From: Schizophyllum amplum
Taxonomy: Eukaryota; Basidiomycota; Agaricomycetes; Agaricales; Schizophyllaceae
Assembly (NCBI GenBank): GCA_007026445.1
Contig: VDMD01000035.1
Location: 124,001-188,000 of the forward strand
DNA: 64,000 nt
Direction of reading: 5' to 3'
The translations under genes and the position numbers were made by a program. Positions 5,763-41,590 of this stretch are shown in pieces (within the stretch, counting starts at the first letter, position 1; every line of letters starts with the position of its first letter). The notes under the pieces were generated by a model. It saw only the letters and a list, made by a program, of their open reading frames with translations, had not been told where the DNA came from and searched no databases.

Positions 5763-5897
5763 GCAAGTGTATGACTGCGGCAATCAGCATAGCTTAACAG
5801 ACTTGACTACAGGTACGAGAAAGTAAACGTTGGGCATAAAGAATGGTGTCTATCAGTATGATAGGCTCAGCGAGTCTCTACATACCATCCGGCCACC

Positions 5898-6000: not shown

Positions 6001-6098
6001 TCTCCTGCATGGCCGCCATCGCACCCTTGCCTACCGCTCTCACTGCCCCCGCGTCGCCGAGATCCACCACTCGTAATATACTGGTTTGATTCAGCGCC

Positions 6099-7475: not shown

Positions 7476-7938
7476 CTTCCTTCTTTGTGTCTACGAGAAT
7501 GCGAGATACATATGTGTCTTCCTTCGTTATCCTAATGCACACTGGGGTTATGAATGGACCCTCGGGTCGTCGAGAGCGATATGATCGAGTTATGTAGCGC
7601 TGGCAGTCTGCGCCAGCCCAAGTACCTACACAGCTTAGCGCCAAACTTTGAGAAACCGATCGTTGTTCGATTTACCACGTGATAGTCACGAGAAATCGGA
7701 GAGATCCGAACCCGCCATTTTGGCTCGTTTGGGAACAAAGGTCACATCTTGTTTCTTTCACTGACTCGTAACCATCAAACCCCGTCCAGGTAGTATCTTT
7801 CGCGGCTAGACTCCTTCGTACACTCTCTGATAGTTTGCCCATCTCATCATAGAGCTTCCAGCACTGGAATCGTGACCCGCGACTTCGCTCCTGCAGCCCT
7901 GCTTGGACCCAGCTTGGACCCCTCTCCCACTGGCCACT
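7476..7938. other. Intergenic spacer between module 1 and module 2
   Basis: No gene is seen. Near 7667-7692 it contains the F-box promoter-like segment (GTTCGATTTACCACG, then ATAGTCACGAG) also found before copy 1. Confidence 0.5.
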
Positions 7939-9764: not shown

Positions 9765-9904
9765 GTACTGTACCTATATGATTGCGGGCAGTCACGGTAA
9801 CAAGCATAGCTTGATGGACTTAGCTATAAATATAAGACAATGATTGTCCGGCAAATAAGTGGTGTCTAGCAGTACAATAGGCTCGGCTAGTCTCTACATA
9901 CTTC

Positions 9905-10030
9905 TTGGGCCGCCTTCGATTTTTGACAGTTGAACACAGGAATGCACGTGTTTTCGGCGTGACGCGGGACCGATTAGATACTTGCGTAATTTAACCGGCA
10001 ACGTCCTCGGTTCTCCTCCATGACCGTCAT
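9905..10030 (+). promoter_or_regulatory. Conserved upstream block with CACGTG before kinase copy 2
   Basis: CACGTG lies at 9945-9950 in GGAATGCACGTG followed by GGCGTGACGCG, 159 bp before the ATG. The flanking ~120 bp is highly similar to 5898-6000. Confidence 0.6.
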
Positions 10031-10108
10031 TGCACCCTTGCCTACCGCTCTCACTGGTCCACGTCGCCGGGAACTACCACTCGCGGTATACCGGTCTGAA
10101 TCAACACC

Positions 10109-11480
10109 ATGCTTGTAAAGATGGGCCGGAAGGACCTCATGGCGAGCGGAGGATATGGTGAGCTCTCACGTTGGCAGATCTCCACAAATTGTGAATCGTT
10201 CCACGGCAGGCAGGGTCTATAAGGGACATGTGATGAACGAAGACGAGTCACGAGTTGTCGCAGTGAAGAAGGCTCGTATCACTCGCAGAGTGGCCGTTCT
10301 GAAGAATCCGATGCTGCGCCATGAGGCGTGTGCGATGCTGGCCCTCCGAGGTAACTTTGGGTCTTCATCCTGTACCGTGATGTAGACTAATATGCGTTGC
10401 TCTCGTAGGTCACCCCAGTATCCCTGAAGTGTGCGCCTACGGAAGGTCCCAGATCTTCGAGTATCTCGCTCTGGAGATGCTTGGCGAGACCATCGACACG
10501 CCGCTCGCATTCGAGGAAGGCCTTACTATGCGAAACCTCATCGCGCTAGTTTGCCAGATGGTGAGGTGTTCATTTTCATCTTGAGCACGATGAATCATTG
10601 TCTGCCTTCCGTCTATTATCTAATGCGAGTTCAGCTAGACGCACTGGCCCATGTCCACTCGCATCATATCATCCACTGCGACATCAAGCCCGACAATTTC
10701 CTCTTCGACCTGAATCCGGCCGTTAGGCAGATCAAGCTGATTGATTTCGGTATTGCGAGAGTTTATCGTAATCCCGCCACCTTGGAACACGTTCAAGAAA
10801 CTACGATGCCTCGTCATATTGGAACCAGAACCTACATCAGCCTGAACGTACACGATCATCACAGTGAGTGCTGCCATTCATATGCATATAGACGTTGGTT
10901 TAACACTCGGATAGATCCATCACGTCGTGATGACATGGAATCGCTGGCGTATTCGATCGTCGATCTCCTTTGTGACGGACTCCCGTGGGCCTATCTTGAG
11001 GTGCAATCGCGCGATGTCTCCGCGATCAAGCAGACGTGGGACGGCTCTGCGCTGTGCGCTGGTCATCCTGCCGTCTTTGGCGCCTTTGTCGATTACGCGC
11101 GGGCCTTAGCCTTTCAGGAAACACCCGACTACGCCACTTGGAGGCGTCAATTTCTAGCTGTCGCTCCCAGCATTGGCGGCGACAGGCCACTATATGACGA
11201 GTCCGACCGGGGACCAACAGTGGGGAGTCACCGATGGGAAAATGGACCAGCGTCTCCCATCAATGCTTTCCGAACGGCACTCGTTTCTCAAGAGTCTGAG
11301 CGCGAGTATGTGACACCCGGGACAAGAGCTTGGCTTCCTTATTCCACCTGGGGACAACCGTCGTCGGTCGCCGACGAGGATTTGATCGGCGACGAGCAGC
11401 GGACCGTGCGCGAGCACTTAGAGCGGATTGAAGAGGTTCCGCTGGACGACGGTGAGGGTTTCGAAAAGATGGTTGAGTAG
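10109..11480 (+). CDS. CK1-like protein kinase, copy 2
   Basis: Five exons (10109-10157, 10210-10350, 10409-10560, 10635-10863, 10915-11480) encode 378 aa. All catalytic motifs are present: ASGGYGRVYKG, VVAVKK, HCDIKPDNFLF, LIDFGIA, SRRDDMESLAY. The acidic tail (DEDLIGDEQRTVREHLERI, then EEVPLDDGEGFEKMVE) is conserved with the other copies. It lies 345 bp downstream of the frameshifted F-box gene and shares the CACGTG upstream block. A predicted active kinase of the CK1 group; the substrate is unknown. Confidence 0.9.
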
Positions 11481-11714
11481 CTTCCTTCCTGATGTCTCTG
11501 AGTATGTGAAGAATCTGTTGGTATTTTCCTTCGCTAAACTGATATATATACGGAAGTTGTGAAGGGACCTTTGTGTTGTCAAGAAAGTTATGCCCGGGTT
11601 CTGTGACACCAGCATCATTCACCAGCCCAGCGATCTACAGAACTTGCCACGATAGCTGCTCCTGAATTGCGGTGCGAATCGTAAGAGCATCAAGCACTGA
11701 ACACAGCGTCAAAC

Positions 11715-12250
11715 GCCAGAGAGGACAAGTAAGTGACGATCCACGCCTTCCCCTCGCTCGACGCGCTCCTGATCACTTCCGTCCGCCTCAGTTGATACTC
11801 TCTCGTCTGCGCACTCTATACGTCAGCACGATCTTCCCCTGCATAAAGTTCCAGAACGCCAGCTGCTTCACTAGCTTTGCCCATGCGTCGGGCGACGCCT
11901 AACACTTCTTGATCACACTCTCGCCGTAGCCGTCGTAGTACAGGCACGTGCAGATCGGGCGCGCCGACAAGCTCGTTGAGGCACGCATGGGGGCCTGAGT
12001 GGCGTCCTTGATGTTCGGATGATGGTGAAAGTGAGCTGGATGGGCTTGGGGAGGCAGGGGGAGGGCGAAGAGGGCCCGAGGTCGAAGGCGAGCACGAGTT
12101 CGTTCATGAGCAAGGGCGGGGTGCCGTCCGAGCAGGAGTACTCGCCAAGGAGGCCGGAGCAACTGCTGTGGAATACGATGACTGCGTAGTAGGTCAATAC
12201 GTGATCGACGGATGAAGGGGGGCGAGAAGTAGTGTGCGTGCAAAGCAGAT
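11715..12250 (-). pseudogene. Carnitine O-acetyltransferase fragment, decayed
   Basis: On the minus strand, several pieces of the C-terminal half of a fungal carnitine acetyltransferase appear in order but in different frames. These are GLLGEYSCSDGTPPLLMNE (around the family's GEHS/DGTP motif), LPKPIQLTF, YYDGYGESVIKKC followed by an in-frame stop, SPDAWAKLVKQLAFW, and SAQTREYQLRRTEVIRSASS (the family's ESAQTRKFQLGRTE region). The N-terminal half is absent above about 12250. Carnitine acetyltransferases move acetyl units between peroxisome, mitochondrion and cytosol; this copy cannot do so. It lies between kinase copies 2 and 3, probably carried in or broken by the local duplications. Confidence 0.78.
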
Positions 12251-12755
12251 GGGGACATCACTGACAACACGGCCTGGCAAAATTATCGATGCATAGGAGG
12301 GGGGTTTCGCAGAGTTGGGTCGTGGAGAAGTGGAGGGGGAAGGGGGAGCGAGACGGGGCGCACCTCGAGTCATTCGCGTGCGTGATCGAGCACGATAAAA
12401 GAAGCGCCGCTCCGCGTTACTGTGCTTGCATCGAACCGGCGGCTCTCGTGTTGGTGTTGTCGGGACTCAGTGATCTATGAAATATTTTATGATGTGCACA
12501 TTTTAACCGCGCACCCCCGACGAGAGCACGCGCCGGAGCTTGACTTGTGGGCGTAGGAGTCGATTCGTCGGGCTTCCATTCAGATTCTTCAGCCTCTGCG
12601 CTTTCCAGTTGTTTTGAATGCTTCCCACAGGATCGGTGATGGCGGTAGAGAGTTAAATCGCAGTCCGATCGTGCTGCTTCGCCTTGTTGTGGCGCGGTTG
12701 CATGGCGGACCACTTTGGTCCCACGTGATAGTCACAGTGATCGTGAGGCGGAATG
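12251..12755. other. Gene-free stretch upstream of kinase copy 3
   Basis: No gene is seen. At 12720-12735 the words CCACGTGATAGTCAC resemble the segment found before the F-box genes, suggesting an F-box gene once stood here and was deleted. Confidence 0.4.
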
Positions 12756-12761
12756 CACGTG
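12756..12761 (+). promoter_or_regulatory. CACGTG element before kinase copy 3
   Basis: GGAATGCACGTG followed by GCGTGAC, 128 bp before the ATG; a shortened version of the block upstream of copies 1, 2 and 4. Confidence 0.5.
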
Positions 12762-12888
12762 CAGCGTGACTCATTGACACATGACCAGCATTCCTTGCCT
12801 CCTCCCATCGCCATCCCCCCCTTTTCACCCTTCTCACTAGCTCACATCGCAGCGAGCCCTACTGGTGGCTTATAGATTTACTCATACT

Positions 12889-14265
12889 ATGCTCGTCAAA
12901 ATGGACTGCGACGACCTCATTGCGAGCGGAGGATATGGTGAGTTCTTATGCTTCAACGTGTAATTTCGACGTCTAAATTGTTCATTGCAGGCAGAGTCTA
13001 TGCTGGGCGGGTACTAAACGAAGTCGTACCACGGGTTGTCGCAGTGAAGAAGGCTCGCATCACTCGCTTGGTGGCCGTTATGAAGAATCCGATGCTGCGC
13101 CACGAAGCGTGCGCGATGCTGGCCCTTCGTGGTGAGTCCGTGTCTTTGTCCTGTATCCCAATGTAAACTAATTTGCGTCCCTCTCGTAGGCCACCCGAGT
13201 ATTCCTGAAGTGTACGCTTGGGGAAGATCCCAAATCTTCGAGTATCTCGCGATGGAGATGCTTGGCGAGACCATCGACACGGCGCTCCAACTCGAAGAAG
13301 GCCTAACCATGCGAAACCTCATCGCGCTAACTTGCCAGATGGTACGTCACCAATTCCTACTTTGAGCACGTCAGTTATGTAGCTGATCCATCTTTGTTTT
13401 TTTCCACCTCAGCTCGACGCGCTAGCCCATGTTCACTCTCATCATATCATACACTGCGACATCAAGCCCAGCAACTTCCTCTTCGACCGCAATCCTGCCG
13501 TTGGGCAGATCAAGCTGATCGACTTCGGTATCGCAAGAGTCTACCGCAATCCCGATACGCTGGCGCACGTTCAAGCAAGCAAGCTGTCTCGCCATATCGG
13601 CACCAGGACATACATGAGTCTACACGTACACAATAAACACAGTGAGTGTTGTTCTTCATCCGAATCATCGATACTAGTGCATGCTTTGGCTAATTATCGA
13701 AATAGATCCATCGCGTCGTGATGACATGGAATCGCTGGCGTATACCGTCGTCGATCTGCTCTGTAACGGGCTTCCGTGGGCTCATCACGATGTGCACTCG
13801 CGTGATGTCTTCGCGATGAAGCAGACGTGGGACGGCCCCGCCATTTGTGCCGGTCATCCTCCCGCCTTTGGCGATTTTGTCAACTATGCCCGCTCCTTGG
13901 CCTTTCAGGAGACACCCGACTACGCGACTTGGAGGCGTGAATTTCTAGCTGTCGCTCCCGGTATTGGCGACATGCCGGTTTATGATGAGTCCGACCGGGG
14001 ATCGACAGTGGGGACGCATCAATGGGAAAATGGATCAGCGGCGGCCGTTGGTCCTTGCCCGACGGTGTCCGTTTCTCAAGAATCCGAGCGCGAGTATGTG
14101 CCGCCCCGGACGCCTGGCTGGCTCCCTATGTCAACTTGGGGTGATCCGTCGTCGGTCGCGGACGAGGACCTTATTGGCGACGAGCGGCGGATTGTGCGCG
14201 AGCAATTGGAGCGGATTGAAGAGCCTCCGATGAACGAGCAGAAGTTTGAAAGGATGGTTGAGTAG
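12889..14265 (+). CDS. CK1-like protein kinase, copy 3
   Basis: Five exons (12889-12937, 12991-13131, 13190-13341, 13413-13641, 13706-14265) encode 376 aa. Motifs are ASGGYGRVYAG, VVAVKK, HCDIKPSNFLF (Ser replaces the usual Asp before the catalytic-loop Asn, a tolerated change), LIDFGIA and SRRDDMESLAY. The activation segment differs from the other copies (SKLSRHIGTRTYMSLHVHN). The acidic tail is conserved. No F-box gene precedes this copy. Confidence 0.88.
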
Positions 14266-14770
14266 CTTCCTTCGTGACTATGAGAACGTGCAAGATATAT
14301 CTGTGTCTTCCTTTACCATCCCCATACATATGAAGACTGTGGATGGGCCTTTGCGTTGCCCAGAGAGGTGCTGGAGTTTTGTGGCACCGGCAGCAGTCGC
14401 CAGCCAAAGTACCTACTTGGATTAGCGCTAATATCATATTGTCTTGCCGCAATGGTCATTCCCTGGTCGATCGCGAGTCCCGAGTCTCATCCTTTCTCAT
14501 GTACATGTCTCCTGCCGACGCCGACGTTGCCTAGACAAGATACTGGTGGCGGCGCCGGCCACTAGACAAGATACACATGTTCGTGTTTGTCTTGTCTAGT
14601 AACAACCATTCAAGACGTTCCTCTAGTTCACAAAGCCAATTGGCTGTCGGATTCCGTGACTCTTCTCTGACCAACAAGCCAGCTCGCATTGCAAACATAC
14701 GTTAGCTATAGATACAAGAAGGTAATCGTGAGTCTCGCACTGGGCACGATGACCGGTCGTATGGATGATG
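12889..14770 (+). repeat. Left arm of a large inverted duplication flanking the AA9 gene
   Basis: Kinase copy 3 and its ~500 bp of 3' flank have an inverted counterpart at 17530-19358. The 3' flanks share GCATTGCAAACATACG, then TTAGCTATAGATACAAG (about 14691-14724 here; reverse complement near 17594-17624). This flank is not seen after kinase copies 1 and 2. Confidence 0.75.
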
Positions 14771-15675
14771 TATGTAGCACGCCGGGCGAGTTATACGCAG
14801 CTGGACATGCGCTAGGCATTGTAAGTAAGTGATGTGCGTGAGTCAGTATAAGTGAAGAGTATCAGTGTGGGTAGAAGCGCGCGGCGCGAATCATGAGAGC
14901 CGCATCGCGCACTGGGCGCGTCGACCGCATCTCCTTCGATCGTGTCATGTTCTCGTCAATAGCCGCCGACGACGATACCTGTTCTTGTCTCTGGGAGACT
15001 CTTGTATCTAAGTACCAGCTCGCCGATGGAAAGGACCGATTTTGTGAGGCGTCCGATCGCGGTAGGCATCCTATGCGCCTTACATACCAAACGCCTTGTT
15101 TCCTTGCAACGCGGCAGCCATCCCTTACTCCCTTGGTCTCCTGTGGCGTCTTTTCATAAGGCGGAACTCAGACAGAGAATGGACCGACAGCGATCCATTT
15201 CGACTCGCTTGGGTTCGAGAGGTCCGTTGTCTTGCAGCTCGACTCTGCCAGACGAGGAAGAAGGAAGTAAATTATGGCATTGGCCAGACATCGACAGATG
15301 GCAGAGGCAGGCGGACAAGCGGCGAGCGAGCACAATGGCCCGGGCTCCGCATGCACGGGCAACGTGGCTAAAATAGACGAGCGAACAATGAGGTGTCCAA
15401 GCGGACAATGGAGACCACGTGACGTTCGAAAGCGGACAACAATGGTAAGGTTTCCTTTTTAGTCTCCGTTGCTCTTGACCGTTGCTTTTATCTCTCCCTT
15501 CCTCCCTCCCCCTTTGACCGCGTTTCCTTTCTGTGCTTGGATTTTGTGTATTGCTCTTGACCTTCCTTGCATTCGCGCCGGCCATTGTCTCCGACACCAC
15601 GACCCCACATCACAGCCACAGCGCCACGACCATTCATCCTTACGCCGTCACCGGGCCTCCACCGCCCCACACCCA
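14771..15675. other. Gene-free stretch between kinase copy 3 and the AA9 promoter
   Basis: No gene is seen. From about 15470 the plus strand is rich in C and T, as is common in basidiomycete promoters. Confidence 0.5.
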
Positions 15676-15683
15676 TATATAAA
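15676..15683 (+). promoter_or_regulatory. TATA box of AA9 gene 1
   Basis: TATATAAA, about 213 bp upstream of the ATG at 15897. The spacing leaves a long CT-rich leader. Confidence 0.55.
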
Positions 15684-15896
15684 GTAACGCACCCGTAAGT
15701 GTCGGCCCTACCCTCCCCGGCTCGTTGCTAACGTCCAGTCCTCCGTCCCTCCTTGACCCTCGCGACCCACGCCCGCGACCTCGCTCCTTCCTTCCCCTAG
15801 ACTTCGTCGCTGCGCGATCGACTGGCACGACTCCCTGTAGCATACCGAGCAGGAACAAACACATCCACGAAGACCAACATAACCATTACCACTACA

Positions 15897-17170
15897 ATGA
15901 AGTCCACCACCACCACCACCACGCTCTTCTCCCTCCTTGCCCTCGTCCCTCTCGTTGCCGCGCACGGCTACGTCGCCAGCGTCAAGATCGACGGCACCAA
16001 GTACGATGGCCCGTACGTCGGCGAGGACGGCGCGTACCCGATCCGCCCCATCAGCACCATCGACCCCATGAAGGGCGCCGACTACGCCGACCTCTCATGC
16101 GGCACGAACTCGTACGCCGTCTCCGGCGACGAGGACAAGGTGTACGCCCAGGCGCAGCCGGGCAGCGACATTGAGGTCTCGTGGATGGGCGGCGGCGGCC
16201 AGGCATGGCCGCACAACGTGTGAGTCATAAGTTCAGCGGGCAACATGGCCGCGGCGCTGACGCGAATCCGCAGCGGACCCATGCTTACATACCTCGCGCG
16301 CTGCGACGACGACGACTGCATGAACTTCGACTCGAAGGACGCGGAGTGGTTCAAGATCGACGAGGTCGCCATGAAGAAGGACGGCAGCGAATGGGAGCAA
16401 GCGGACCTCAGTGCGTCTTAAATCTGCTCTCTTCGTCAGCGTGTCACTAACCCCCCACCCCAGTGCAAGAGGAACCCGCCAAGGTCACGCTCCCCTCCAA
16501 CCTCGCCGCGGGCTCGTACCTGCTGCGCCACGAGATCATCGCGCTGCACATCGCCAGCGACGAGGGCGGCGCTGAGTTCTACGCCGGATGCGTGCAGATG
16601 AAGGTCGGCGGCTCCGAGACCGGCGCGCCGTCGGACTCCGACCTCGTCAAGTTCCCCGGCGCCTACAGCGACGAGGACCCGGGCATCTTGGTCAACGTGA
16701 GTATCGTACGAGACCCTGTGAGAGCGTTTGCTGACCCCATTTTCCAGGCCTTCTCCCTCGGCAAGAACGACTACCAGTTCCCCGGCCCTAACGTGTCGGA
16801 CCTGTCTGGCTCCTCCAGCGGCTCCTCGTCCGATAACGACGAAGGCGACGACGACGACAACAGCAGCTCCGCCAGCTCGTCGGGCGCCCACAGCTCCAAG
16901 ACATCCAGCGGCGCGCCGGAGGCAACGGGCGGCTACGACTCGGGGTACACGAAGAACAACTCGTGCTGTGAGTACTCGTTATCTGCAATGACGAGAGACA
17001 ACTTGCTGACTGCTCTCCCAGCTCTCAAGAAGCGCTCATCGGGCAACGTCAAGCGGTCGAACATGACCGGCGAGGACACCGCGAGCATCGAGTACGCCAA
17101 GGCCAAGCGCGGCCACCCGCGCGTGTACAGCCGCATCATGCGCGGCCTCGACTGGCGCAGCGTCTTCTAA
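15897..17170 (+). CDS. Secreted AA9 lytic polysaccharide monooxygenase, gene 1
   Basis: Five exons (15897-16219, 16274-16410, 16464-16696, 16748-16967, 17022-17170) encode 353 aa. A signal peptide (hydrophobic ~10-20, ending VAA) leaves His23 as the mature N-terminal residue (HGYV), the first copper ligand of the histidine brace. The second copper histidine lies in WPHNVGPMLTYLARC. The AA9 core continues with SYLLRHEIIALH, EFYAGCVQMKV and DYQFPGP. AA9 enzymes oxidatively cleave beta-1,4-glucans such as cellulose or xyloglucan outside the cell. After residue ~235 comes a Ser/Asp-rich linker and then a basic C-terminal tail (KRSSGNVKRS ... RIMRGLDWRSVF) instead of a CBM1. The gene lies between two inverted kinase copies. 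Family assignment is firm; substrate cannot be told. Confidence 0.92.
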
Positions 17171-17529
17171 ATGCGCTTCGTCTTTAACACGCCCTTCGTG
17201 CTTGCGACCCACCTGCCGGGGGCCTCGTATCTCCCCATCCCCGCGCCCTTCCACCCTCGCCGCGCCCCTCCATCTCCGCCGCGCCCCTCCATCCTCGCGC
17301 CCCTTGTCCCTCTGTAGCCCTACCACGCACTCATTGTATCCTCCATCCCCGGCTCCCTCATTGGTTATGTCTACTTATGCGGTCGCTTACTTATTCTCTC
17401 CGTTCCACGCTGCGCCCAGTGCGCGATGCTCTCATGATTTGCGCGGCGCGCTTCAAGTTCTACCAACACACTCACGTCACTTGCATACGCGTTACTTACA
17501 ATGCCCAGTGCATGACTACGCCCGGCGCG
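17171..17529. other. AA9 gene 1 downstream region
   Basis: C-rich 3' flank with CCCTCCATC-type repeats at about 17245-17310. No gene is seen before the inverted-duplication arm begins near 17530. Confidence 0.4.
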
Positions 17530-19358
17530 CCACATTATCCTCACTTACGACTTGGTCCTCGCCCAGCGCGGGGCTCACGATCATCCCCTTGTATCTATAG
17601 CTAACGTATGTTTGCAATGCGAGCAGGCTCGTTGGTCAGAGAAGAGGGGGATTCCAGCGAATTGGCTTTGTGCATGTGTTGAGGGACGGAAGACAAGGTA
17701 GAAATGAACTTGTTCATTTGGCTAGGCGGGGCCTTCCTCGCGAGAAGACATGAGAAAGGTTGGCACGACTACTTATTGTGGCAAGAAAATATGATATTGG
17801 CGCTAAAAGCTGAGTGGGTACTTTAGCTGGCGACTGCTGCCAGTGCCACAAAAACTCGTACTTCATAACTCGAGCCTTTCTCTCGAGACAAGTCGACGGT
17901 CCGTTCATCACGTCGATATATACCAGAATAAAGAAGGGAGACATCGACGCATCTCAAAGACACAGGAAAATAAGCTACTCAACCATGTTTTCGAACGTCT
18001 CCTCGTCCATCGGAGGCTCTTCAATCCGGTCCAACAGCTCGCGCACGGTCCGCTGCTCGTCGCCAATGAGGTCCTCGTCTGCGACCGACGAAGGAAGCCC
18101 CCAGGTTGACATGGGCATCCAGAGTCTTGTCCCGGGTGTTACATACTCGCGCTCAGACTTCTGAGAAACGAGCGCCGTTCGGAAAGGACCAATGGGAGAC
18201 GCTGGTCCGTTTTGCCACTGGTGCTTCCCCACTGTCGGTCCCCGGTCGGACTCGTCATAAAGTGGCCTGTCACCGCAAATGCTGGGCGCGACAGCTAGAA
18301 ATTGACGTCTCCAAGTGGCGTAGTCGGGTGCCTCCTGAAAGGCCAAGGAGCGCACGTAGTCGACAAAGGCGCCAAAGACGGGAGGATAACCAGCGCACAG
18401 CGCGGAGCCGTCCCACGTCTGCTTGATCGCGCAGACGTCGCGCGACTCCACCTCACGGTAGGCCCACGGGAGCCCGTCACAGAGAAGATCGATGATGGTA
18501 TACGCCAGCGATTCCATGTCATCACGACGTGATGGGTCTGTCTCGTTATTCAGCCAACGTCTACACGAACGTGGATGGCTTAGATCAAGGGCAGCACTCA
18601 CTGTGATGGTTATGTACGTTCAGGCTTATGTAGCTTCTGCTACCGATATGGCGAGGCATCGTGCATTCTTGGACGTGCTCCAAGGTAGCGGGATTGCGGT
18701 AGACTCTTGATATACCAAAATCAATCAGCTTAATCTGTCCAACGGCGGGATTCAGGTCGAAGAGGAAATTGTCGGGCTTGACGTCGCAGTGTACGATATG
18801 GTGTGAGTGGACATGGGCCAGCGCGTCTAGCTGCATTGGGAGTAACAGACCTGAGTGAGATGGTCTTTGTGCTCGAAGTGAAAATGAACACCTCACCATC
18901 TGGCAAACTAGCGCGATGAGGTTTCGCATGGTAAGGCCTTCGTCAAGATCGAGCGACGTGTCGATGGTATCGCCAAGCATCTCCAAAGCGAGATACTCGA
19001 AGATCTGGGTCCTTCCCCAAGCGTACACTTCGGGAATGCTTGGGTGGCCTATGATAGCCGTATATATCAATTTACGTTGCGGTACAGGAAGAAAGCATAA
19101 ACTTACCACGAAGGGTCAGCATGGCACACGCTTCGTGGCGCAGCATCGGATTTTTCATAACGGCCAATCGGCGAGTGATACGAGATTTCTTCACTGCGAC
19201 AACCCGTGTCGCGGCTTCGTTCATCACGCGGCCGGCGTAGATTCTGCCTGTGGTGGAACAGTTAGGACGTTGTCGGAAATACATACGTCTCACTCAAATG
19301 AGAGTTCACCATATCCTCCGCTCGCTATGAGGTCCTTTGGGCCCATTTTCACAAGCAT
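17530..19358 (-). repeat. Right arm of the inverted duplication
   Basis: Inverted counterpart of 12889-14770. It includes kinase copy 4 and the shared 3' flank. Upstream of the kinase this copy resembles copies 1 and 2 more than copy 3, so it is not a simple mirror of copy 3. Confidence 0.75.
17975..19358 (-). CDS. CK1-like protein kinase, copy 4
   Basis: Five minus-strand exons (19310-19358, 19107-19247, 18897-19048, 18602-18830, 17975-18537) encode 377 aa. Motifs present are ASGGYGRIYAG, VVAVKK, HCDVKPDNFLF, LIDFGIS and SRRDDMESLAY, with the conserved acidic tail ending ENMVE. Exon sizes match the other three copies. A CACGTG block lies 162 bp upstream at 19520-19525, and an F-box remnant lies further upstream, so the original F-box-then-kinase order is kept in inverted orientation. 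Predicted to be catalytically active. Confidence 0.9.
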
Positions 19359-19499
19359 GGCGCTGAAGCAGGCCAGTAGACCACTAGTGGTGGTTGCCGG
19401 CGACGTGGACCAGTGAGAGCGGTAGACAAGGGCGCAATGACCGTCATGGAGGAGAAATGTGGACGCTGCCGGTCAGTTTACGCAAGTACCTACTAATCG

Positions 19500-19600
19500 G
19501 TCCCGCGTCACGCCGCAAACACGTGCATTCCTGTGTTCAACTTCAACTGTCAAGAATCGAAGGTGGCCAGAAAGTATGTAGAGACTCGCTGAGACTATCG
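19500..19600 (-). promoter_or_regulatory. Conserved upstream block with CACGTG before kinase copy 4
   Basis: Read on the minus strand this is GGAATGCACGTGT followed by GGCGTGACGCGG, matching the blocks at 5898 and 9905. CACGTG is at 19520-19525. Confidence 0.6.
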
Positions 19601-19689
19601 TACTGATAGACACCACTTCTTATGCCCAAAATTCACTGTCTCGTATCTGTAGCTGAGTCTATTACATCAGCTATGCTTGTTATACTCTG

Positions 19690-19965
19690 ACTGCCGCGTT
19701 CATATATCTATTCAGCTCCTTCGTTGCCCAAACAACTGTGGCGTCCTGTACGCCCAGGTCTGAAAACCGCGCTGCTGTGCGGAGCGACTCCCCTACAGCC
19801 TTCGACCCAAACGCTGGCGATCTTGCATGGGCGCTGAGTGACAACATCCATCCGCTTGCCCGGTCTCTGCTTGACGAGGCAACCCGCCGTCGGTCTTCCG
19901 GGTTTGTAAGGAGTCCTTGTTCCTCACTGGAGGCCCGTAGAATATCTTGCAGTCTAAAGTTCAAC
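19690..19965 (-). pseudogene. F-box gene C-terminal remnant
   Basis: The minus strand matches the last ~250 bp of the F-box gene at 3912-5762. The pieces are the segment around the CRGVTP region, DLGVQDATVV before the terminus, and the VKQIPGKR region. Frames are broken and nothing upstream of it (coiled coil, F-box domain) is recognisable. It stands where the F-box partner of kinase copy 4 would be expected. Confidence 0.72.
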
Positions 19966-27196: not shown

Positions 27197-30100
27197 ATGA
27201 ATGCGGAGCTCATCGTGGTATACGCGTCTCTCTTCTCCATCGTCTCTTTCGCGTTCAAGGCTGCTTGCCGTCTGTGGATGACAGGAAAGGATGACGCGTC
27301 GCCAGTGCTCAACAAGTCGGTCTACGCCCTCAAAGGCGTCGGCATCTTTCGCTTGGCCAGGTTTATAGGTTGTGTTGCACTCCTGGGAGCTTCGGCTGCG
27401 TCTGCTGCGATTTCGCAGTCGTGGATTGACGCTGCACTCTGCGCCTCCTTCGTCAGTGTATTTTTCCCCGTGCATATGCATGCTACTGACTGACTGTCGT
27501 TTCAGTGCTACGCGTGTGTACTCGCTTTCGTATCCGCCGCTCGCTTGCATGTCTCCCCTGCTGCCACCGCTCATTTGAACGCCCTCCTTCTCATCGCGTT
27601 CGGCGTTCTTGCTGTGCCAGACCTTGCTCCCTTCGCCATGCGTGATAGGCATCCTACGGAGGCTGAAAATGCGCTTCTATGGGTTATTATTGCGCTGCTT
27701 TTCTTGAACGGCGTTCTTATCCCGTTGATTACGCCGAGGGTTCATACTCCTGTCAATCTGAAGGTACTGCCGTGTTCGTATGACCTTTATTCTCCACCGT
27801 TGAACGCATGACAGAATCCATGGCCTGCCACTGTAGAGCAACAAGCGTCCATCTTGTCCGTTGCGACATTTTCGTTCTTGAATCCTGTCATTTCGCTGGC
27901 CAAGAATAAGCCTGACCTTGCTCTGGATGACCTGCCGCCTGTCGCGGACACGGATGACGCGGAGCATTTGATGGCGAAGAGCTTCGAAGTAAGGTGGCTC
28001 ACCTTCGGCCTATCGATATTCTTATGATTTACTACAGACCCTCGATATACTTGGTGGCAAGCGCCGGAGGCATATTTTCTTTGGGCTGTTGAGGGTCTTC
28101 CGACTTGAGTACTCGCTCTTGGTACTCTCTCTTGTCATTCAGGTCCTGGCAAACTTTGCAGCGCCGCTGGGCTTAAACCGTATACTCTAGTACGTCTCGT
28201 CGTTTATGCCTTATAACGCGCTGATTGTGCCGCAGCTACTTCGAGCAGGGACAGGAGAAGATGACGATGCGCCCGTGGTTTTGGATTAGCCTCCTCTTCG
28301 TGGGGCCGACGATAGGATCTTTCGCGCTGCAGTGGTATATTCATCTTGCAGTAGGCAACTCATTTGTTCTCCTATTCCGCTTAACCGAATTGCCATATAG
28401 ACGCGTACAACCATCCGCGCAGAAGCTATCGTCACGCAGCTGATATACGAGCATGCGCTGAGACTTCGAATTCAGGCTGGCTTGGGCGAGCAGTCAACGA
28501 ACGAGGACTCAGAGCGTCGACCCGACAAAAACAATTTCCTAGGCCGCCTCAATACGCTGGTGACGACAGATCTGCAGAACATCATTAACGGCCGCGACTT
28601 CATCTTGATCCTGGTCTTCATTCCCCTGAATGTGATAATTGGCATCTCGTTCTTGTATTCGATTCTGGGGTGGAGGTATGGTGCCTTCCTCGCTTATACG
28701 ATGCTTGAAGGCGATGAACCACGTCCCTAGTGCATTCGTGGGCCTGGCCGTCATCATCGCTACCCTTCCCGTACCGACAATCTCGGCCAAGATGATCCAG
28801 GAAGTCGACAAGGAACGTCTGCGCCGTTCAGACGCTCGAGTACAGAGCATCACCGAAGGTTCGTCTCTTTCCTACTTAGCTAAACTTACGCTGCTAAGCG
28901 CCATGAATGCAGTCCTCAGTATTGTCCGGATGGTCAAGATCTTCGGCTGGGAGCGCAAGATGAAGGACAAGGTCTCGCAACAGCGCCGCGCCGAGCTCAC
29001 CGTCTTACTCCGCAGACGCATCACTGAGAAGATAAGTGACGTGATCGTCTTCTGCATCCCCGTCGTCGTCATGCTGGCGACGTACACAACCTAGTGGGTT
29101 TTGTCTTATTTCTTGCATCGACATGATAGCTCACCCCGATACAGTGTATGCACTCCACCAACGTCCTCCGAGGAGACACTGACGCACCGCAGACCCTCGT
29201 CATGAAAGAGGCCCTCAGCGCGTCTATCGTATTCAGCTCCATGACTGTCTTCGACATTTTGCGCGAGATGATTGGCCTGAGCATGTACATTATTACGTCG
29301 GCCACGACGGCGAAGGTCTCGATGGATCGCGTCGACGCGTTTTTGAACCTTAAGAACGTTGGTCGTTCTTCTTGATTGCACGTCATTACCTAACGGCCTT
29401 TACTCTCAGTCGGACCTCCTAGACGCGCTCGACATATCCCGCGACGTCCAGCCTCCAGCGGCTCCTCCGTCAGAGGGAGTGGTAGGGTTCCGAGATGTAA
29501 TCTTTGCGTGGTCGGACGACGTCGGTTCCTTCAAGCTGTGTGCGGATGAAGAGGTCGTGTTCAAGACAGGGAAGGTAAACCTAATCGTTGGTCCAACGGG
29601 GTCAGGGAAGACGTCGTTAGTCTCGTTTATTTCCCGTCTGACCTTCAAGCTAAATTCCCCAGTCTCCTTATGGCTCTTCTCGGTGAGTCCACCGTGATCT
29701 GCTAAGCACGTGATTCAAGCTCTATCCAGGCGAAATGCGATACGCGCCTATCACCTCTGCTTCTTGGGTCCAGCTTCCTCGCGAGCACGGTATTGCATAT
29801 GCGGCGCAAGAATCTTGGGTCCAGAGCGACACGATCAAGGTGCGTGCGCTTTCCTGTACCAAGCACGCTGTAACCTTACCTTGTTTTGCAGAACAACATC
29901 CTCTTCGGAGCTCCCTACGATGAAGAGCGCTACAAGACAGTCCTGTATCAATGCGCGCTGGACCGCGACCTCACCCTTTTCGATGCGAAGGATGGGACCG
30001 AGGTCGGCGAGAAGGGAGTCACTCTCAGCGGTGGGCAGAAGGCACGCGTGACTCTCGCGAGGGCGGTATACTCGAGGTATGGACGAAGTCATCCGACAAT

Positions 30101-33100
30101 TTGTAATCGGCTGATACATCATGGATAGCGCGAACATTCTTCTGCTGGACGATGTCTTGGCTGCTTTGGAGTGTGTATCTGTGTCTGACGATAAGTTGCT
30201 AGTCCTGATTCGCGTCCACCCAGTGTACATACGGCGAAATGGATCGTTGAGAAGTGTCTGTCTGGATCGCTGGTCAAGGGACGTACAGTCCTCCTTGTGG
30301 TGAGCTCTAGTCTCTCCGCGGATAGGGTATGCTTATAACGCTCCCTGATCCAGACGCACAACGTCGCGCTTGCGCAGCCTCTCGCCGATGCCGTGGTGGC
30401 GGTCTCGAATGGACGAGTTACCCTGGATGATAATTTTGCGATCGCCGTTACACATGACACTACCCTCGCGCAAGAGCTGGAACGTGATCAGAATTTCATA
30501 GAGAGGGATGAGGAGCAGACCGACGACTTTGCTCACGAAGCAGCGGAGAAGGAACCCAGTGTTGGGAAGCTCATCCTCGCTGAGGAGGTTGACGTCGGCC
30601 GCATCAGCTGGGACACGCTCGTCACATATTTGCGCGCCGCAGCTGGCTCGAAATTGCCCTTATTTCTGGCCGCCTGGATCGCCATCGTCAGCTTCGCGGA
30701 TGTCATCCACGCCGGGTCTACGTGGTATCTGGGATATTGGGCGTCACAGTATGAGACCCATGACCCCAGCGAGGTCAACGTGTCCGGGTTGGTTTTATGG
30801 CTTTTATCTTCATTGGGCTGGGGAGTTGGCTGATGGATACATAGGTATCTTGGGGTATACGGGTTACTTCTTCTGGCGCAAGTTGTCGCTGTTTTTGTCG
30901 GCTATCTCATTCTTGTTCTAGGGGGTTTGCGTGTGTCGAAGGTCCTGCATGACACGTTGATGGACAGCGTGTTGGGGACAACATTAAGGCGCGCTCTACT
31001 CTCTACTCTCTAATCCATCTCGCCGTCTCATCGTCCGGAACAGATGGCACGATCAGACACCCTCTTCGAGAATACTTGCACGTTTCACCGCCGATATGGC
31101 TATGCGTATGTTCACCTAATCTCTCATTATCTGGATCTCACTGCTAACTACTGAAAACCCCCTACAGTGGACACCGAACTCCCTCGCGACATGCAGTTCA
31201 TGTGCCAACTCACCGTCGGCCTTATCGTCAAGCTCGTGGTCATCGTCATCATCACACCTCTCTTCCTTGTCTTCGGACTGCTCGTTGGCGTCGGGGGAAT
31301 GGTCCTTGGCTCGACGTATATGCGCGCGCAGATGCCCGTGACGCGTGAGACCACCAAGGCGAGGGCGCCAATTCTTGCGCAGTATGTAGCCTTTGAGTTT
31401 CTGCAGCGATGTGATTGCTGACGGCCGCTTAGCTTCAATGCATCGATGGCGGGTTTAGGTGCGTATGACGTGGGTTTTTATGTTTTTGGCTGATGCTCGA
31501 CTTGTCCATAGTGTCCATCCGCGCCTACGGGGCGCAAGAGAGCGTCAAATACGCGTCGACACAGCGCATTAATCGATACACGCGTGCAGCCAGAGTATCC
31601 TTCGATCTGCAGCGCTGGATTACGGTGAGGTGTGTGCATTTGGGCCATAGTCATATCTGGGCATACTTTGCTACGGAGATCGTCGTTGCTGACGCTTGAA
31701 TTACAGGATGGACGCCATCGGCGCTGCATTCGCCACGCTCTTGGCTATATATTTAGTTTACTTCAAGAGCGCCGGCGAGATTGGCGCGAACGCGACGGGG
31801 TTCTCGTTGAATATGGCGGGTGTGTGTTTGACTTCGCGTGATGAAGAAGTACTGAATATTCTGATTGGCATAACTCAGTTGGCTTCAGCGGCATGGTCCT
31901 CTTTTGGGTCCGCATGATGAACATTCTCGAGGGCGATTGTGAGTGGGAATATTACCTGTATCTCTATCCCACTGACCGTTCTCCCAGGCAACAGGTAAGG
32001 GCGTTTTCCTTCAAACTAGCGGAGTCCTATATCTAGGTGACTCCCACCAGCGTCGAGCGCATCAACCAATATTTGAAGATCGAGCAAGAGCCCGCAATCT
32101 CGTCGACAGGGAATCCGCCTGCATCACTGGCACTGGACGGCCACCCGCCGGCCTCCTGGCCTGCCAGTGGCGAGCTCGACGTGCGCAACCTGTCCGCGTC
32201 GTACTCGAAGGGCGGCCCCAAGGTCCTGCGCGGCCTCTCGTTCCATATCAAGTCTGGCGAACGTGTGGGTGTGGGTGAGTGGGATATTTTGTTCGATTAG
32301 TCGGATACGTCCGAAGGGCGCCTTATGCTGTGTGACGCATGAATGGTGCCGTTCAACGGAAGCGACAGTCGTGGAGGGGAACGGGTTATGGAAATTCCGA
32401 CCCGCGCACAACTTTTACGGTCACGTGCCCGCCAGGGCACCGTCCCGAAGTCAGGTTGTGAGCTGGTTAGGTTAGGTTCGTTAGGTTCAGGTTAGGTTTA
32501 GGTTGGTTAGGGTTAGGTTGGTTAGGTTTAGGTTGGTTAGGTTGGTTAGGTTGGTTTGGGTAGCAGGTATGTCATTATTTTGTCCTGCAGAATCGTAATA
32601 AAAAGTCACTAAAGTTGTGCGCGCGCTGCGATTCCCGGGTTATGTCTGTTGAACGAGTTGCTCCACCCCTTCAACCGACCACCCACCATTACACGACTGA
32701 CCCCTGTCACCCACAGTTGGCCGCACCGGCGCCGGAAAAAGCTCCCTCAGCCTAGCGCTTCTCCGCTGCATCCAGACGGAGGGCGAGGTGTACTACGACG
32801 GGCTGGACACGAGGACGGTCTCCCTGGAGGCGCTGAGGAACAGTATCACGATCATTCCGCAGGTGGTGAGTGGGAGTGTATCATTTCGGTGCTCGCGGCG
32901 GGTTGTTGTTGTGCTCCGGGGTCTTTATTGCGCTTCTCGGTCTTTGTTGTGCTGTAGGGCTTGATTGTGCTGGCGAATGTTTGTTGTGCTCTCGCGTCAT
33001 CGTTGTACTGGCGGGCCTTTGTTGCACTGGCGGATCTGCTGGCCTGTCTCCCCATAATTTTGCTGTGTCTTCTGACTACGTGCCGACTCACCACCAACCC

Positions 33101-34189
33101 ACAGCCCGAGATGATCAGCGGCTCCCTGCGCGAGAACCTGGACCCCTTCGGCGAGCATGACGACGCGGCGCTGAACGATGCCCTACGCGCCGCGGGGCTG
33201 TTCGCACTGCAGGAGGACGCAGGTGTGTCGAGTATGACAGCTGCAGCAGACGCGACGCAGGACACCACCGTATCGGATTTGGTGAATTTAGGGAACCAGA
33301 CAATAGCGAACTCAGGGAACAAGACAACGGCGAACTCAGGGAACCAGACAACGGCTGTAAACCTCAACCTCGACACCCACATTGCCTCCGGCGGCTCCAG
33401 CCTCTCCGTCGGGCAGCGGCAGATCGTGGCGCTCGCGAGGGCGCTGGTGAGGAGGAGTCGGGTGCTGGTGCTGGATGAGGGTGCGTGGATTGTTGAAAGA
33501 TTCTTTTCTCGTCTCTGTGATATTTTGGAGAGGTTGGGCTCGAGACTCAGCTGGTATCGGTTTCTTGACGTTATACTGACGACGATGTCCTCTCCTTCAC
33601 AGCTACGTCCGCGATCGGTGAGTCTATTTACTTTAGATTGACTATTATCCGAATTCCTTGGTCGCCGTCCCACTTTCGTCGTCCGATCTCCAGGCTCCTA
33701 GTCGCCTTCCGACCTTCTGAGTCGTCACTGACCTCTGAGACGGACAACACAGTACTAACGCATCCTTCTCAGACTACCGCACGGACAGTATCATCCAGTC
33801 GTCCCTCCGGCGCCAGCTGGGCTCCGACGTGACGCTGATCGTCATCGCGCACCGGCTGCAGACGGTGATGGATGCTGATAGAATTGTGAGTGGGAGAGTT
33901 CGAGTGTTTCACGCGCTTCCCTGGCGTCCCATACCGCTGTTTACCCCATCCTGCTTAAGTACCACCACCTCGCCCCGTTCTGCCTGCTTATCACCCCAAT
34001 GACCCCTGCTGACCACCCCAATGACCTCTCGGCTGACCACCCCTCACCCTCTAGATCGTCCTCGATGCAGGCAAGATCGTCGAGTTTGATACCCCGCGCG
34101 CGCTCCTGTCGCGCCCCGAGGGGATTTTTGCGGCGCTGGTGAGGGAGGCGCCGGATAGGGAGAAGCTGGAAAGGGTCACGGTCGAATAA
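27197..34189 (+). CDS. Full-length ABCC (MRP/YOR1-type) ABC transporter
   Basis: A multi-exon gene (roughly 25 or more introns) with the order TMD0-TMD1-NBD1-TMD2-NBD2. Hydrophobic N-terminal helices (27197-27770) are followed by the first transmembrane block (about 27830-29370). NBD1 has Walker [10 protein letters not shown], signature [16 protein letters not shown] and Walker [12 protein letters not shown]. The second membrane block spans about 30600-31910, including [18 protein letters not shown]2 has Walker [32 protein letters not shown], signature [15 protein letters not shown] and Walker B VLVLDEATSAI, then VIAHRLQT. The stop is at 34187-34189. ABCC proteins export conjugates, drugs or metabolites across plasma or vacuolar membranes using ATP. 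Very small exons occur (20 nt near 29670, 15 nt at 33603-33617). The intron 32275-32716 is 442 nt and carries telomere-like repeats; 32866-33104 is another long one. The start ATG is the first in a good frame; GTG at 27140 is not a eukaryotic start. Confidence 0.9.
32464..32560 (+). repeat. Telomere-like GGTTAG repeat inside an ABC transporter intron
   Basis: About 12 irregular copies of GGTTAG / GGTTTAG / GGTTAGG lie inside the intron 32275-32716. It is close to the fungal telomere unit TTAGGG but mostly lacks the third G, so it is a variant or degenerate interstitial repeat. Confidence 0.85.
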
Positions 34190-38719: not shown

Positions 38720-40985
38720 ATGTCCATGAAGCAGGATATCGAAAAGGGCGAGGTCGAGACCACGCAGCAAGTCGAGGCCACGCCGCCGTCGCGCGCTAAT
38801 CTGCAGTATGCACCCAATCACAACGGCGCGAATGGTCAGTGATCCCGCCCCGTACCCCGCCCCCCGCATTCCACGTCGCCCCCCGCATGTCCGCTAACCC
38901 TCTTCCCCAGGCTCTGCGTACCCACCCCGCCCGCTCCCCGGCAGCCACATAGCGAACCCGGGCACGCTCGGCCTCTTCTCCTTCGCCTCCACCACCTTTG
39001 TCCTCTCCATGTACAACGCCCGCGTCCGCAGCATCACAGAGCCCAACGTCGTCGTCGGCCTCGCGCTCTTCTTCGGTGGGATAGCCCAAATGTTGGCAGG
39101 GATGTGGTGAGTTTTGCGCGCGTTCTGTATTCATTGTCTGTTTGATCACCTCGCCACCTTGATCACCCGGCCACCTTGATCACCCGGCCACCTTGATCAC
39201 CCCGCCACCGTGACCTGATCGCCCCGCAACTCCCCGCTTCCCCACTTCTTCCCGTCGACCCTGTCTGCCACCGCTCTCTGCCACCGCTCGCCCAATGCTG
39301 CCTAAACATATCCTAACCTAAACCTCTCAGGGAATTCCCCCGTGGCAACGCCTTTGGTGCTACCGCCTTCACCTCCTACGGTGCCTTCTGGCTCTCCTAT
39401 GCCACCATCCTCATCCCCAGCTCGGGTATTGGGGCGGCGTATGTGGGTGAGTAAGGAGGATATTAATTGGTTTCGTTTATCATCTCTTTTTCTCTCCAAT
39501 GCTTTCGCTTTCTCATCTGATTTCGATTTCTTACTTCCCTTTCGCCTTCTCACTTCCCTTGCGCCTCCTCACTTCCCTTGCGCTTCATCACTTCCCTTGC
39601 GCTTCATCACTTACACCTCCAACCTTAACTGACACCTTCAATCTTGACTGACACCTCCAGTCTTGACTGACACCTCCGACCTTGACTGACACATCCCTAG
39701 GTACCGCGGACGCGCCCATAGCCGGCGGTGAGGCGATGTTGGCGGACGCGATTGGCATCTACCTGATGATGTGGATGATGGTCACGTTCTTTTTGTTGTA
39801 AGCATTTCCACTAGTATTTTCGGCCATTCGCCTCTTTCCGGCCTTTCGACTCTTTCCAGCCTTTCGACTCTTTCCACCCTTTCGACTCTTTCCACCCTTT
39901 CGACTCTTTCCGGCCTTTCGACTCTTTCCACCCTTTCGACTCTTTCCAGCCTTTCGACTCTTCCCAGCCCTTCGACTTTCTAGGTCGGCCGGTTCTCTTC
40001 TACTGTTTAGGTTGTCCGGTTATTTCTACTCTCCAGTCGTCCGGTTATTGCTTCTCTCTAGTCGTCCGGTTATTTCTACCCTCCAGTCGTCCGGTTATTT
40101 TTCCAGCTCAATTATTTTCTACAACCCTATACTGATCACTCAACCCTATGCTGATCACGAATCCCTTCACTGATCACGAATCCCTATGCTGATCACTCAA
40201 CCCTATACTGATCACGGATCCCTATACTGATCACTAATCCCTTTACTGATCACGGATCCCTTTACTGATCACTCAACCCTATACTGATCACGAATCCCTC
40301 AACAGCATCGCCTCCCTGAAGCGCCCCGTACCCTTCGCCGCCCTCTTCGGCATGCTATGCCTCACGTTCCTGCTGCTTGGGGTGGGCGAGTTTAATGCGG
40401 CGCCGAAGTGAGTTTTTGACTCTTTGTTGATTGTTTATTTCTCGCTGTGTGTTTCTTTCTCGTTGATTCTGCTTTGACACCCTCGTTGATTCTGCTTGGA
40501 CACCCTCGTTGATTCTGCTTTGACCCCCTCGTCAATTGCGCGTTCCATTCTCCCATTCGCCTCACGCATCTGTGCGCCACGCCTCTTGCTTCGCGACCCA
40601 TCCGTCCTACATCTTCTCGCATCCCTCCTGCATCTTCTCGCATCCCTCCTGCATCTTCTCGCATCCCTCCTGCATCTTCTCGCATCCGTCCTGCATCTCG
40701 CCCGCACCTTATGCCTACCTCCCTTTCCCGTGCTAACCCACCTCCCTTTCCCGTGCTAACCCACCTCCCTTTCGCATGGCTAACCCACCCTCCCTTTCGC
40801 ATGGCTAACCCACCCTCCCTTTCGCATGCTAACCCACCCTCCCCAGCGTCACCCGCGCGGGCGGCATCACGGGCGTCATCACCGCGTTTATCGCGTACGG
40901 CATCGGGCTCTGCGAGCTGGTGGGCTGGCCGCTGGGCCCGGTGCCGTGGAAGGACGAGGCGAGGGTTTTGGGGAGGTTTCCGTGA
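38720..40985 (+). CDS. GPR1/FUN34/YaaH-family acetate transporter
   Basis: Six exons (38720-38834, 38911-39106, 39331-39446, 39701-39797, 40306-40407, 40847-40985) encode 254 aa. After a polar N-terminus (MSMKQDIEKGE) comes the family signature IANPGTLGLFSFASTTFVLS (the NPxxLGL motif), then about six hydrophobic helices. Further conserved segments are GNAFGATAFTSYGAFWLSY and LADAIGIYLMMWMMVTFFLL. The family includes yeast Ady2 and Aspergillus AcpA, which move acetate and ammonium across the plasma membrane. All splice joins keep frame. Four of the five introns are unusually long for this genome (224, 254, 508 and 439 nt) and consist largely of tandem repeats reaching the 3' splice site. Family is confident; substrate is inferred from relatives. 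Confidence 0.9.
39150..39215. repeat. Intron-2 minisatellite (CACCTTGATCACCCGGC)
   Basis: About four 17-bp copies within the intron 39107-39330 of the acetate transporter gene. Confidence 0.85.
39530..39700. repeat. Intron-3 minisatellites, reaching the 3' splice site
   Basis: Four ~19-bp copies of CTTCCCTTGCGCCTCCTCA are followed by about five copies of CTTGACTGACACCTCC. The last copy, CTTGACTGACACATCCCTAG, contains a CTGAC branch-point word and ends in the AG acceptor used by exon 4. Confidence 0.85.
39815..40305. repeat. Intron-4 minisatellites, three arrays, reaching the 3' splice site
   Basis: About 9-10 copies of CCTTTCGACTCTTTCCA (39818-39980) are followed by about four copies of CTCCAGTCGTCCGGTTATT (40000-40105). 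Then come about nine copies of CTGATCACNAATCCCTATA (40125-40300). The last unit ends CTCAACAG, the acceptor of exon 5. The first array stays open in one frame only because of its repeat structure. Confidence 0.88.
40450..40846. repeat. Intron-5 minisatellites, three arrays, reaching the 3' splice site
   Basis: Three copies of CTCGTTGATTCTGCTTTGAC are followed by five copies of GCATCTTCTCGCATCCCTCC. Then come about five copies of GCTAACCCACCTCCCTTTC. The last copy, GCTAACCCACCCTCCCCAG, has a consensus CTAAC branch site and is the acceptor of exon 6. Confidence 0.88.
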
Positions 40986-40999
40986 GTGGGGGGGGGTGA

Positions 41000-41590
41000 T
41001 TGTGACGGGGGGGGCGATTATGGGGGGAGAGGAGGCGGGGGAAGGAAAGATGGGAGAAGGGGGGAGGCGAAGACCTACCCGACGGATACCCAGCTACGGC
41101 TACGTGCAACCTGACGACTGCGACTGCGGCGAGGCGCGACCATGGCCAGTGCGACCCGACGATTGCGTGCTACGTGCGACCCTCGACCACCGTGACTGCG
41201 GCGAGGACCATGGCCAGTGCGACCTCCGACGACTACGACTGCGCTACGATTTCAGTGTACATCTTGAATGTGTATTTTGTATCATTGTTTTCTTTGACTT
41301 TTTGTGCGTGTTTGACTTTTTGTGCATGTTTGACTTTTTGTGCGTGTGCGAGGGTGTTGTGAGATGAGTAGATGGGGAGGGTGGAGAGTGAGGGTGAGGT
41401 GGGGGGGGAGAAGGGGTGAGGTGCGGGGGAGAAGAGGGGGTGAGGATGGTGAGTGAGAGGGAGAAGAGGGGGTGAGGTGGGTGAGGGGGGGAGGGTGGGT
41501 GATGTGGGAGATGGGAGCGACGAGGGCCTTTTATACTCATATGGTCACCGACCGGCGTCCGGGGAAGCCTGGCGGGGAGGTCCTATAGGC
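41000..41590. repeat. Dispersed repeat, copy 1
   Basis: Shares blocks with 43550-44020: GGCTACGTGCRACC, CAGTGTACATCTTGAATG, TTGTATCATTGTTTTCTTT and ACCGACCGGCGNCCGGGGAA, in the same order. A purine-rich tract is inserted or expanded in this copy. Confidence 0.75.
41360..41520 (+). repeat. Purine-rich (G/A) tract
   Basis: About 150 nt of almost pure G and A with T breaks (GGTGAGGTGGGGGGGGAGAA and similar). Many runs of three or more G make G-quadruplex or triplex formation possible. Confidence 0.75.

Follow-up and report, generated by a model that had tools for sequence, protein, structure and literature searches.

The Ato gene and its introns

We analysed a 64,000-nucleotide stretch of DNA from the agaricomycete Schizophyllum amplum, also known as Auriculariopsis ampla. 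This stretch, hereafter the window, corresponds to positions 124001-188000 of contig C239 in a source assembly of 49.65 Mb and 309 contigs. It contains a gene of the GPR1/FUN34/YaaH family (acetate/ammonium transporter family), which we refer to as Ato. The encoded protein matches Pfam family PF01184 with an E value of 2.1e-66 and a score of 223.9 bits, as compared to a curated cut-off of 25, and this family membership suggests that it transports acetate. The closest database protein is S. amplum P0001, which is also 254 aa long, differs by the single substitution P32H, and aligns without gaps at every splice junction. Introns make up 1501 nt of the gene as compared to 765 nt of coding sequence, and 1014 of the intron nucleotides lie inside tandem arrays detected by TRF (Table 1).

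Table 1. Coordinates of the Ato gene, its introns and arrays, and array-bearing introns at other loci. The window haplotype is described unless haplotype B is named; L020 entries are positions in that locus.
Feature	Coordinates	Strand	Description
Ato gene (GPR1/FUN34/YaaH)	38720..40985	+	6 exons, 5 introns, 254 aa; PF01184 match, database protein
Ato intron 1	38835-38910	+	76 nt
Ato intron 2	39107..39330	+	224 nt; 132 nt in haplotype B; 17-nt array at 39142-39213 in 5' half
Ato intron 3	39447..39700	+	254 nt; 271 nt in haplotype B
Intron 3 upstream array	39528..39612	+	19-nt unit TTCTCACTTCCCTTGCGCC, 4.5 copies; no CTRAY
Intron 3 terminal array	39609..39696	+	19-nt unit, 5 copies; CTGAC in 4, first unit CTTAC
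Ato intron 4	39798..40305	+	508 nt; 314 nt in haplotype B
Intron 4 first array	39823..39977	+	18-nt unit, 8.6 copies; no CTRAY
Intron 4 second array	39984..40100	+	25-nt unit, 4.6 copies; no CTRAY
Intron 4 terminal array	40125..40299	+	19-nt unit with CTGAT, 9 copies; 3 in haplotype B
Ato intron 5	40408..40846	+	439 nt; 464 nt in haplotype B
Intron 5 first array	40459..40532	+	23-nt unit, 3.2 copies; no CTRAY
Intron 5 second array	40599..40698	+	21-nt unit, 4.8 copies; no CTRAY
Intron 5 terminal array	40718..40843	+	23-25-nt unit with CTAAC, 5 copies; 5 in haplotype B
Predicted ABC-transporter (PF00005) intron	33886..34054	+	CTGAC-bearing terminal units, 3 (window haplotype) versus 4 (haplotype B)
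L020 intron	8368-8780	-	15-nt units of GCTGACTGGACATTT type, ending in GCTGACTGGACACGCAG; from gene finder
L020 neighbouring intron	8900-9198		array starts at donor: intron nt 2 (period 39), nt 7 (period 19)

Introns were predicted with a purpose-written gene finder, which recovers all five Ato introns, places the gene start 6 nt late, and overruns the stop. A further intron that it predicts at 40982-41093 conflicts with the database protein, whose end lies at 40985. Earlier settings over-predicted (1865 introns) and were replaced; the settings used here yield 294 introns in 225.6 kb, and 134 of these fail a coding filter, so filtered sets were used for counts of YAG, branch-site distances, and anchored repeats. 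The 225.6-kb sample behind all of the intron statistics, 40 kb of which is allelic, stands against a genome of 49.65 Mb and is made up of approximately 131.6 kb taken by position plus loci that came from sequence searches.

Terminal arrays of introns 3, 4, and 5

The original prediction held that a repeat array runs up to the acceptor in introns 3, 4, and 5 with the splice-site region as its final unit, that each intron has its own repeat, and that each unit carries a CTGAC or CTAAC branch-site word. The terminal TRF arrays end 4, 6, and 3 nt from the last base of introns 3, 4, and 5, respectively. In all three introns, the final repeat unit constitutes the acceptor region. The presumed branch-site adenine of the last unit lies 11 nt (intron 3), 18 nt (intron 4), and 14 nt (intron 5) from the intron end, and that of the penultimate unit lies 30, 37, and 38 nt from it. 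The terminal units of the three introns are unrelated sequences that share the same architecture within one gene, so each intron does have its own repeat.

For each intron, the 25 nt preceding the last three intron bases were scored against the best-matching upstream stretch, with dinucleotide shuffles as the null. In the window haplotype, this anchored match is 20/25 for intron 3, 22/25 for intron 4, and 18/25 for intron 5, the unit length of which varies by 1-2 nt; these scores are equaled in 0, 0, and 1 of 1000 shuffles. In the second haplotype, haplotype B, the corresponding scores are 20, 22, and 21 of 25, each equaled in 0 of 1000 shuffles. By the same measure, the acceptor region of intron 2 is not repeated (12/25, with 818 of 1000 shuffles as good). 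Acceptor-ending repetition in introns 3 to 5 is therefore not a product of chance, and the TRF ends and shuffle tests together bear out the predicted arrangement of array and splice site. The claim concerning the branch-site word holds for nearly every unit if it is widened to admit the CTGAT of intron 4, and it fails for the first unit of intron 3.

Copy number differs between two haplotypes

A second copy of Ato is found on contig C283 (haplotype B). It aligns with the window copy across all exons, and the intron differences fall largely in array stretches. The numbers of terminal units in the window haplotype versus haplotype B are 5 versus 7 for intron 3, 9 versus 3 for intron 4, and 5 versus 5 for intron 5. 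Both haplotypes retain the acceptor unit, with no more than one base changed (CCTAG/CCCAG in intron 3). P0001, the database protein of haplotype-B Ato, has the same splice junctions, and all five intron positions are common to both haplotypes.

Among 31 aligned predicted introns, the eight that contain arrays account for 655 of the 758 nt of length difference between haplotypes; these eight include the interval 40982-41093 (7 nt), which is not an intron according to the database protein. The remaining 23 introns differ by 103 nt together, with a median of 0. The Ato arrays thus have the hallmarks of intronic minisatellites or VNTRs, namely head-to-tail units of more than approximately 10 nt in at least three copies, with a copy number that differs between the two haplotypes of this one assembly.

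Short repeats are error-prone in assembly, and most of the gene models used here are predicted, so misplaced intron borders, or repeats that were collapsed or expanded during assembly, might be thought to have produced the pattern. However, two contigs independently carry arrays with near-identical acceptor units, database proteins support the junctions of haplotype-B Ato and of the L020 introns described below, and the pattern is found at further loci. An artefact of assembly or annotation is thus highly improbable.

Elsewhere in the window, approximately 4 kb at 27830-31852 make up the front of a predicted ABC-transporter gene. C283 lacks them at the collinear position, which reflects either a large presence/absence variation or an assembly effect. 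A predicted intron at 32275-32716 (442 nt) contains a degenerate telomere-like GGTTA/GGTTAGGTT repeat, and its 160-nt allele lacks the repeat. At 3900-19900, similar stretches on both strands, with roughly 76-83% DNA identity off-diagonal to haplotype B, form a local paralogue cluster.

Branch-site words and AG content of the arrays

In short predicted introns, CTRAY is present 8-50 nt from the intron end in 48 of 105 cases, and the distance from branch site to intron end has a median of 13 nt and a 5-95% range of 11-32 nt. Given that the other 57 lack CTRAY in this interval, the true branch-site consensus is looser than CTRAY. Measured from the intron end, the decoy branch words of the arrays fall at 27-170 nt, and almost all are farther away than the 11-32 nt range of the short introns.

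Ato introns 3 to 5, the ABC-transporter intron, and L020 together have a single YAG in the 488 nt that run from the first array branch site to the acceptor. The baseline is 265 in 10,240 nt for the 32 long predicted introns that remained once four array or Ato introns had been taken out. A similar count for seven loci fetched from elsewhere in the genome gives one YAG in 486 nt, where two of the loci (L035 and L046) were recognised by eye only and the count for L031 stops at the first AG (position 616), the gene finder having used an AG 8 nt further. Intron 4 has no YAG in the 167 nt from its first array branch-site adenine to the acceptor and 10 in the 310 nt upstream of its terminal array; the corresponding upstream stretches of introns 3 and 5 have 0 in 158 nt and 0 in 306 nt, respectively. 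This YAG deficit can come either from selection or from the copying of a stretch that was AG-free from the outset. The sole upstream CAG in the intron 3 array, at 39658-39660, is present in both haplotypes. Its use would add 40 nt to the mRNA and shift the reading frame, and it is therefore presumably unused.

The near absence of YAG over as much as 167 nt would be expected if the arrays were functional, that is, if multiple equivalent branch sites were kept by selection because they raise or tune the splicing of long introns. By simple count (p = 4e-5), the branch word is also better conserved than the rest of the unit, with mismatches in internal units of 3/110 versus 56/330 (window haplotype plus L020) and, in haplotype B, of 3/75 versus 28/225. 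Under a rotation control, however, the combined p value is 0.19, and we do not claim conservation of the branch word. The terminal array of intron 4 has nine units in one haplotype and three in the other, two of the seven intron 3 units of haplotype B read CTTAC, and most decoys lie past the usual distance from branch site to AG. Taken together, these observations make a selected function for the arrays quite unlikely.

Arrays at other loci

Acceptor-ending arrays are not confined to Ato. The terminal array of the predicted ABC-transporter intron has an anchored match of 19/25 in haplotype B (0 of 1000 shuffles) and 15/25 in the window haplotype (57 of 1000). At L020, an S. amplum protein in the database, P0121, extends across the junction of the array-bearing intron at 8368-8780 as well as the neighbouring junction.

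For CTGAC, we took the first 20 near-regularly spaced arrays, picked by eye among the first 100 of 430 genome-wide triple matches; this choice passed over irregular matches and three long satellite-like blocks. In 6 of the 20 loci, a predicted same-strand exon begins 8-50 nt past the final CTGAC when the model includes a branch-point term; the count is 5 of 20 when it does not, L028 being the locus that drops out. The control, which consisted of the opposite strand at these loci, gives 0/20. A second score drawn from the same coding model, with a threshold of at least 6, gives 4/20 versus 0/20 on the opposite strand (Wilcoxon p = 0.02). The cleanest case is L030, in which three copies of CTGACCACCATTGC are followed by an AG and an open, coding-like frame; the best AG by the second score lies approximately 20 nt beyond the one chosen both by eye and by the gene finder. 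Putative acceptor arrays at L035 and L046 were recognised by eye and stand outside the count of five to six. Since none of the exon pieces that follow the arrays in L030, L035, L040, and L046 has a Pfam match, these four acceptors are predictions made by the coding model or by eye. An interval at L016 (5740-5958) that scored in the wider intron set described below is probably a false intron. No acceptor is predicted at the end of 14-15 of the 20 CTGAC arrays, which tells in part against the original prediction. A degenerate satellite of approximately 1 kb, of CTGACCGACC type, lies at 1244213-1245315 of contig C1.

Tandem arrays cover 7.8% of predicted introns, 3.6% of intergenic DNA, and 2.7% of exons in the sample, Ato included. 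Directly after the acceptor arrays of L030 (from 544) and L031 (from 625), in the oriented sequences, there are in-frame coding tandem peptides (PDFTLDGIKP and TSDRMHFN; PAADQA and STMQAVS), indicating that tandem duplication reaches coding sequence too.

Is the acceptor end of introns preferred?

A stronger proposal is that the branch-site/3' segment is a preferred substrate for duplication, through R-loops, pyrimidine-tract slippage, or double-strand-break repair, and that introns grow mainly at the acceptor end. The recurrence of one architecture in three Ato introns with unrelated units, at L020, and at other loci speaks for such a dedicated mechanism, as does the higher array coverage of introns relative to intergenic DNA and exons. 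Among oriented arrays, a coding onset follows in 4 of 11 that have CTRAY in the unit and in 6 of 127 that do not (Fisher p = 0.004). However, two of the four positives are the Ato introns themselves, and the association is expected in any event, since any array at an acceptor includes a branch site.

Genome-wide word counts give the proposal little help. Triple clusters of CTGAC number 430 versus 473 for the reversed word CAGTC, and those of CTGAT number 165 versus 174 for its reversed word, so neither is in excess. CTAAC clusters do exceed their reversed word (392 versus 147), but by a hand count six telomeric or short-period blocks account for 66 of the 100 rows listed, and we place little weight on this excess for that reason.

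The position of repeats within introns bears on the proposal more directly. At a threshold of 17/25 in the filtered set, acceptor-anchored repeats are found in 4 of 37 long introns, as compared to 3.97 expected from mid-intron windows; with the Ato gene removed, the figures are 1 of 33 and 1.56. Donor-anchored repeats number 0/37 at 17/25, which favors the acceptor end, and one at 16/25. In a wider set of 65 introns there are five acceptor-anchored and no donor-anchored repeats versus 5.0 expected. The single case at 16/25 is the L020 intron at 8900-9198, whose array begins at the donor end; GTGAGT itself is not repeated, only the stretch that follows it. In view of this array, we do not claim a donor/acceptor asymmetry, and it slightly lowers the probability that we give to growth directed to the 3' end. 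Any part of an intron can thus hold an array, with the splice dinucleotides left outside it, and the counts show no preference for the acceptor.

The original prediction that introns grow by duplication of the branch-site/3' unit therefore stands insofar as array introns carry most of the length difference between haplotypes. It falls short with regard to a special mechanism, against which the word clusters, the mid-intron rate, and the repeats in exons and intergenic DNA all count. The data lend no support to a dedicated mechanism of branch-point duplication, and we regard growth directed to the 3' end as unlikely. Still less credence attaches to the full proposition that intron 3' ends are favored for tandem duplication and that the arrays act as copy-number-variable splicing modules, differing in length between haplotypes, that tune the expression of their host genes.

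Discussion

The arrays are probably the result of ordinary tandem duplication of the minisatellite type, which is tolerated in introns where the copies omit the splice dinucleotide. The occurrence of repeats in exons and intergenic DNA as well supports this reading, and the arrays have the look of side effects of a general tendency to tandem duplication, one that affects coding sequence as well. Weighing against it are the lack of an acceptor excess outside Ato, the CAG inside the intron 3 array of both haplotypes, the possibility that the scarcity of YAG was inherited with the first copy, the predicted status of the acceptors at L030, L035, L040, and L046, and the better conservation of the branch word by simple count, which could mean that the decoys matter but loses its significance under the rotation control.

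The array anatomy, its recurrence, the copy-number change between haplotypes, the constancy of the junctions at the protein level, and the scarcity of YAG are direct observations. The duplicated segment includes the branch-site word and the stretch that follows it and ends before the AG; in the mechanism that we propose, copies would be generated by slippage or unequal exchange. Each added copy gives the intron one more potential branch site, and the acceptor downstream remains the same. The spliceosome selects the first usable AG past the branch. It would keep to the last unit, in which 11-18 nt separate the branch-site adenine from the intron end, and to the first usable AG. AG-free copies would thus be invisible to the mRNA; the same mRNA and protein would be produced, and copy number could drift in a near-neutral manner. 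Copies that bring in an AG downstream of the branch site, or a full second donor, would change the mRNA and be lost through selection.

Intronic minisatellites and VNTRs consist of imperfect tandem units in several copies, the number of which varies between haplotypes. The arrays described here resemble them in their imperfect 15-25-nt units and haplotype-variable copy number, and differ in that the last unit is the branch site plus acceptor region and in that YAG is mostly absent from the unit. Another known feature of introns is the AG exclusion zone seen with distant branch points, in which AG is scarce from branch site to acceptor. The stretch from branch to acceptor is AG-poor here as well, but as many as nine branch words lie within it. 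Intron gain through tandem duplication, as outlined in the open literature, is similar in that 3' splicing signals, among them a putative branch site, form part of the duplicated stretch; it differs in that the duplication spans an intron-exon border and creates a new intron, whereas here an existing intron lengthens. No new intron position derived from a duplicated segment was found between the two haplotypes compared, in which the five positions are identical. Dispersal of the introner type was not found for the 16-mer CTTGACTGACACCTCC, the one unit searched genome-wide, which occurs at four exact places, two at this locus and two at its allele.

Two published systems are close in other respects. 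In canine LHX3, intron 5 is reported to be spliced poorly when it has lost one 7-bp repeat and is only 68 bp long (PMC3223203). There, as here, the copy number of an intronic tandem repeat alters intron size; the S. amplum introns, by contrast, are long, and their arrays are not known to affect splicing. For fungal stwintrons, it is proposed that a splice element inside an existing intron, the donor, undergoes a small duplication and that nested introns result (PMC7138796). Duplication of a splice element within a fungal intron is common to both, but it is the branch/3' segment that is multiplied here and the donor there. Among titles and the opening parts of abstracts in the open-access literature, we found no description of acceptor-ending branch-site arrays; subscription papers fell mostly outside this search, and it is a weak sign of novelty.

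Fungal introns, then, can grow by copies of a branch-site segment while the reading frame and the acceptor are left untouched. Fruiting-body RNA-seq of S. amplum already exists, in a study of developmental transcriptomes that covers the species (PMC8893723). With nine branch-site copies in one haplotype and three in the other, a single assembly provides a natural experiment on the choice that the spliceosome makes among equivalent branch sites, and the same pair of haplotypes also tests the maximum upstream distance at which a branch site can work.
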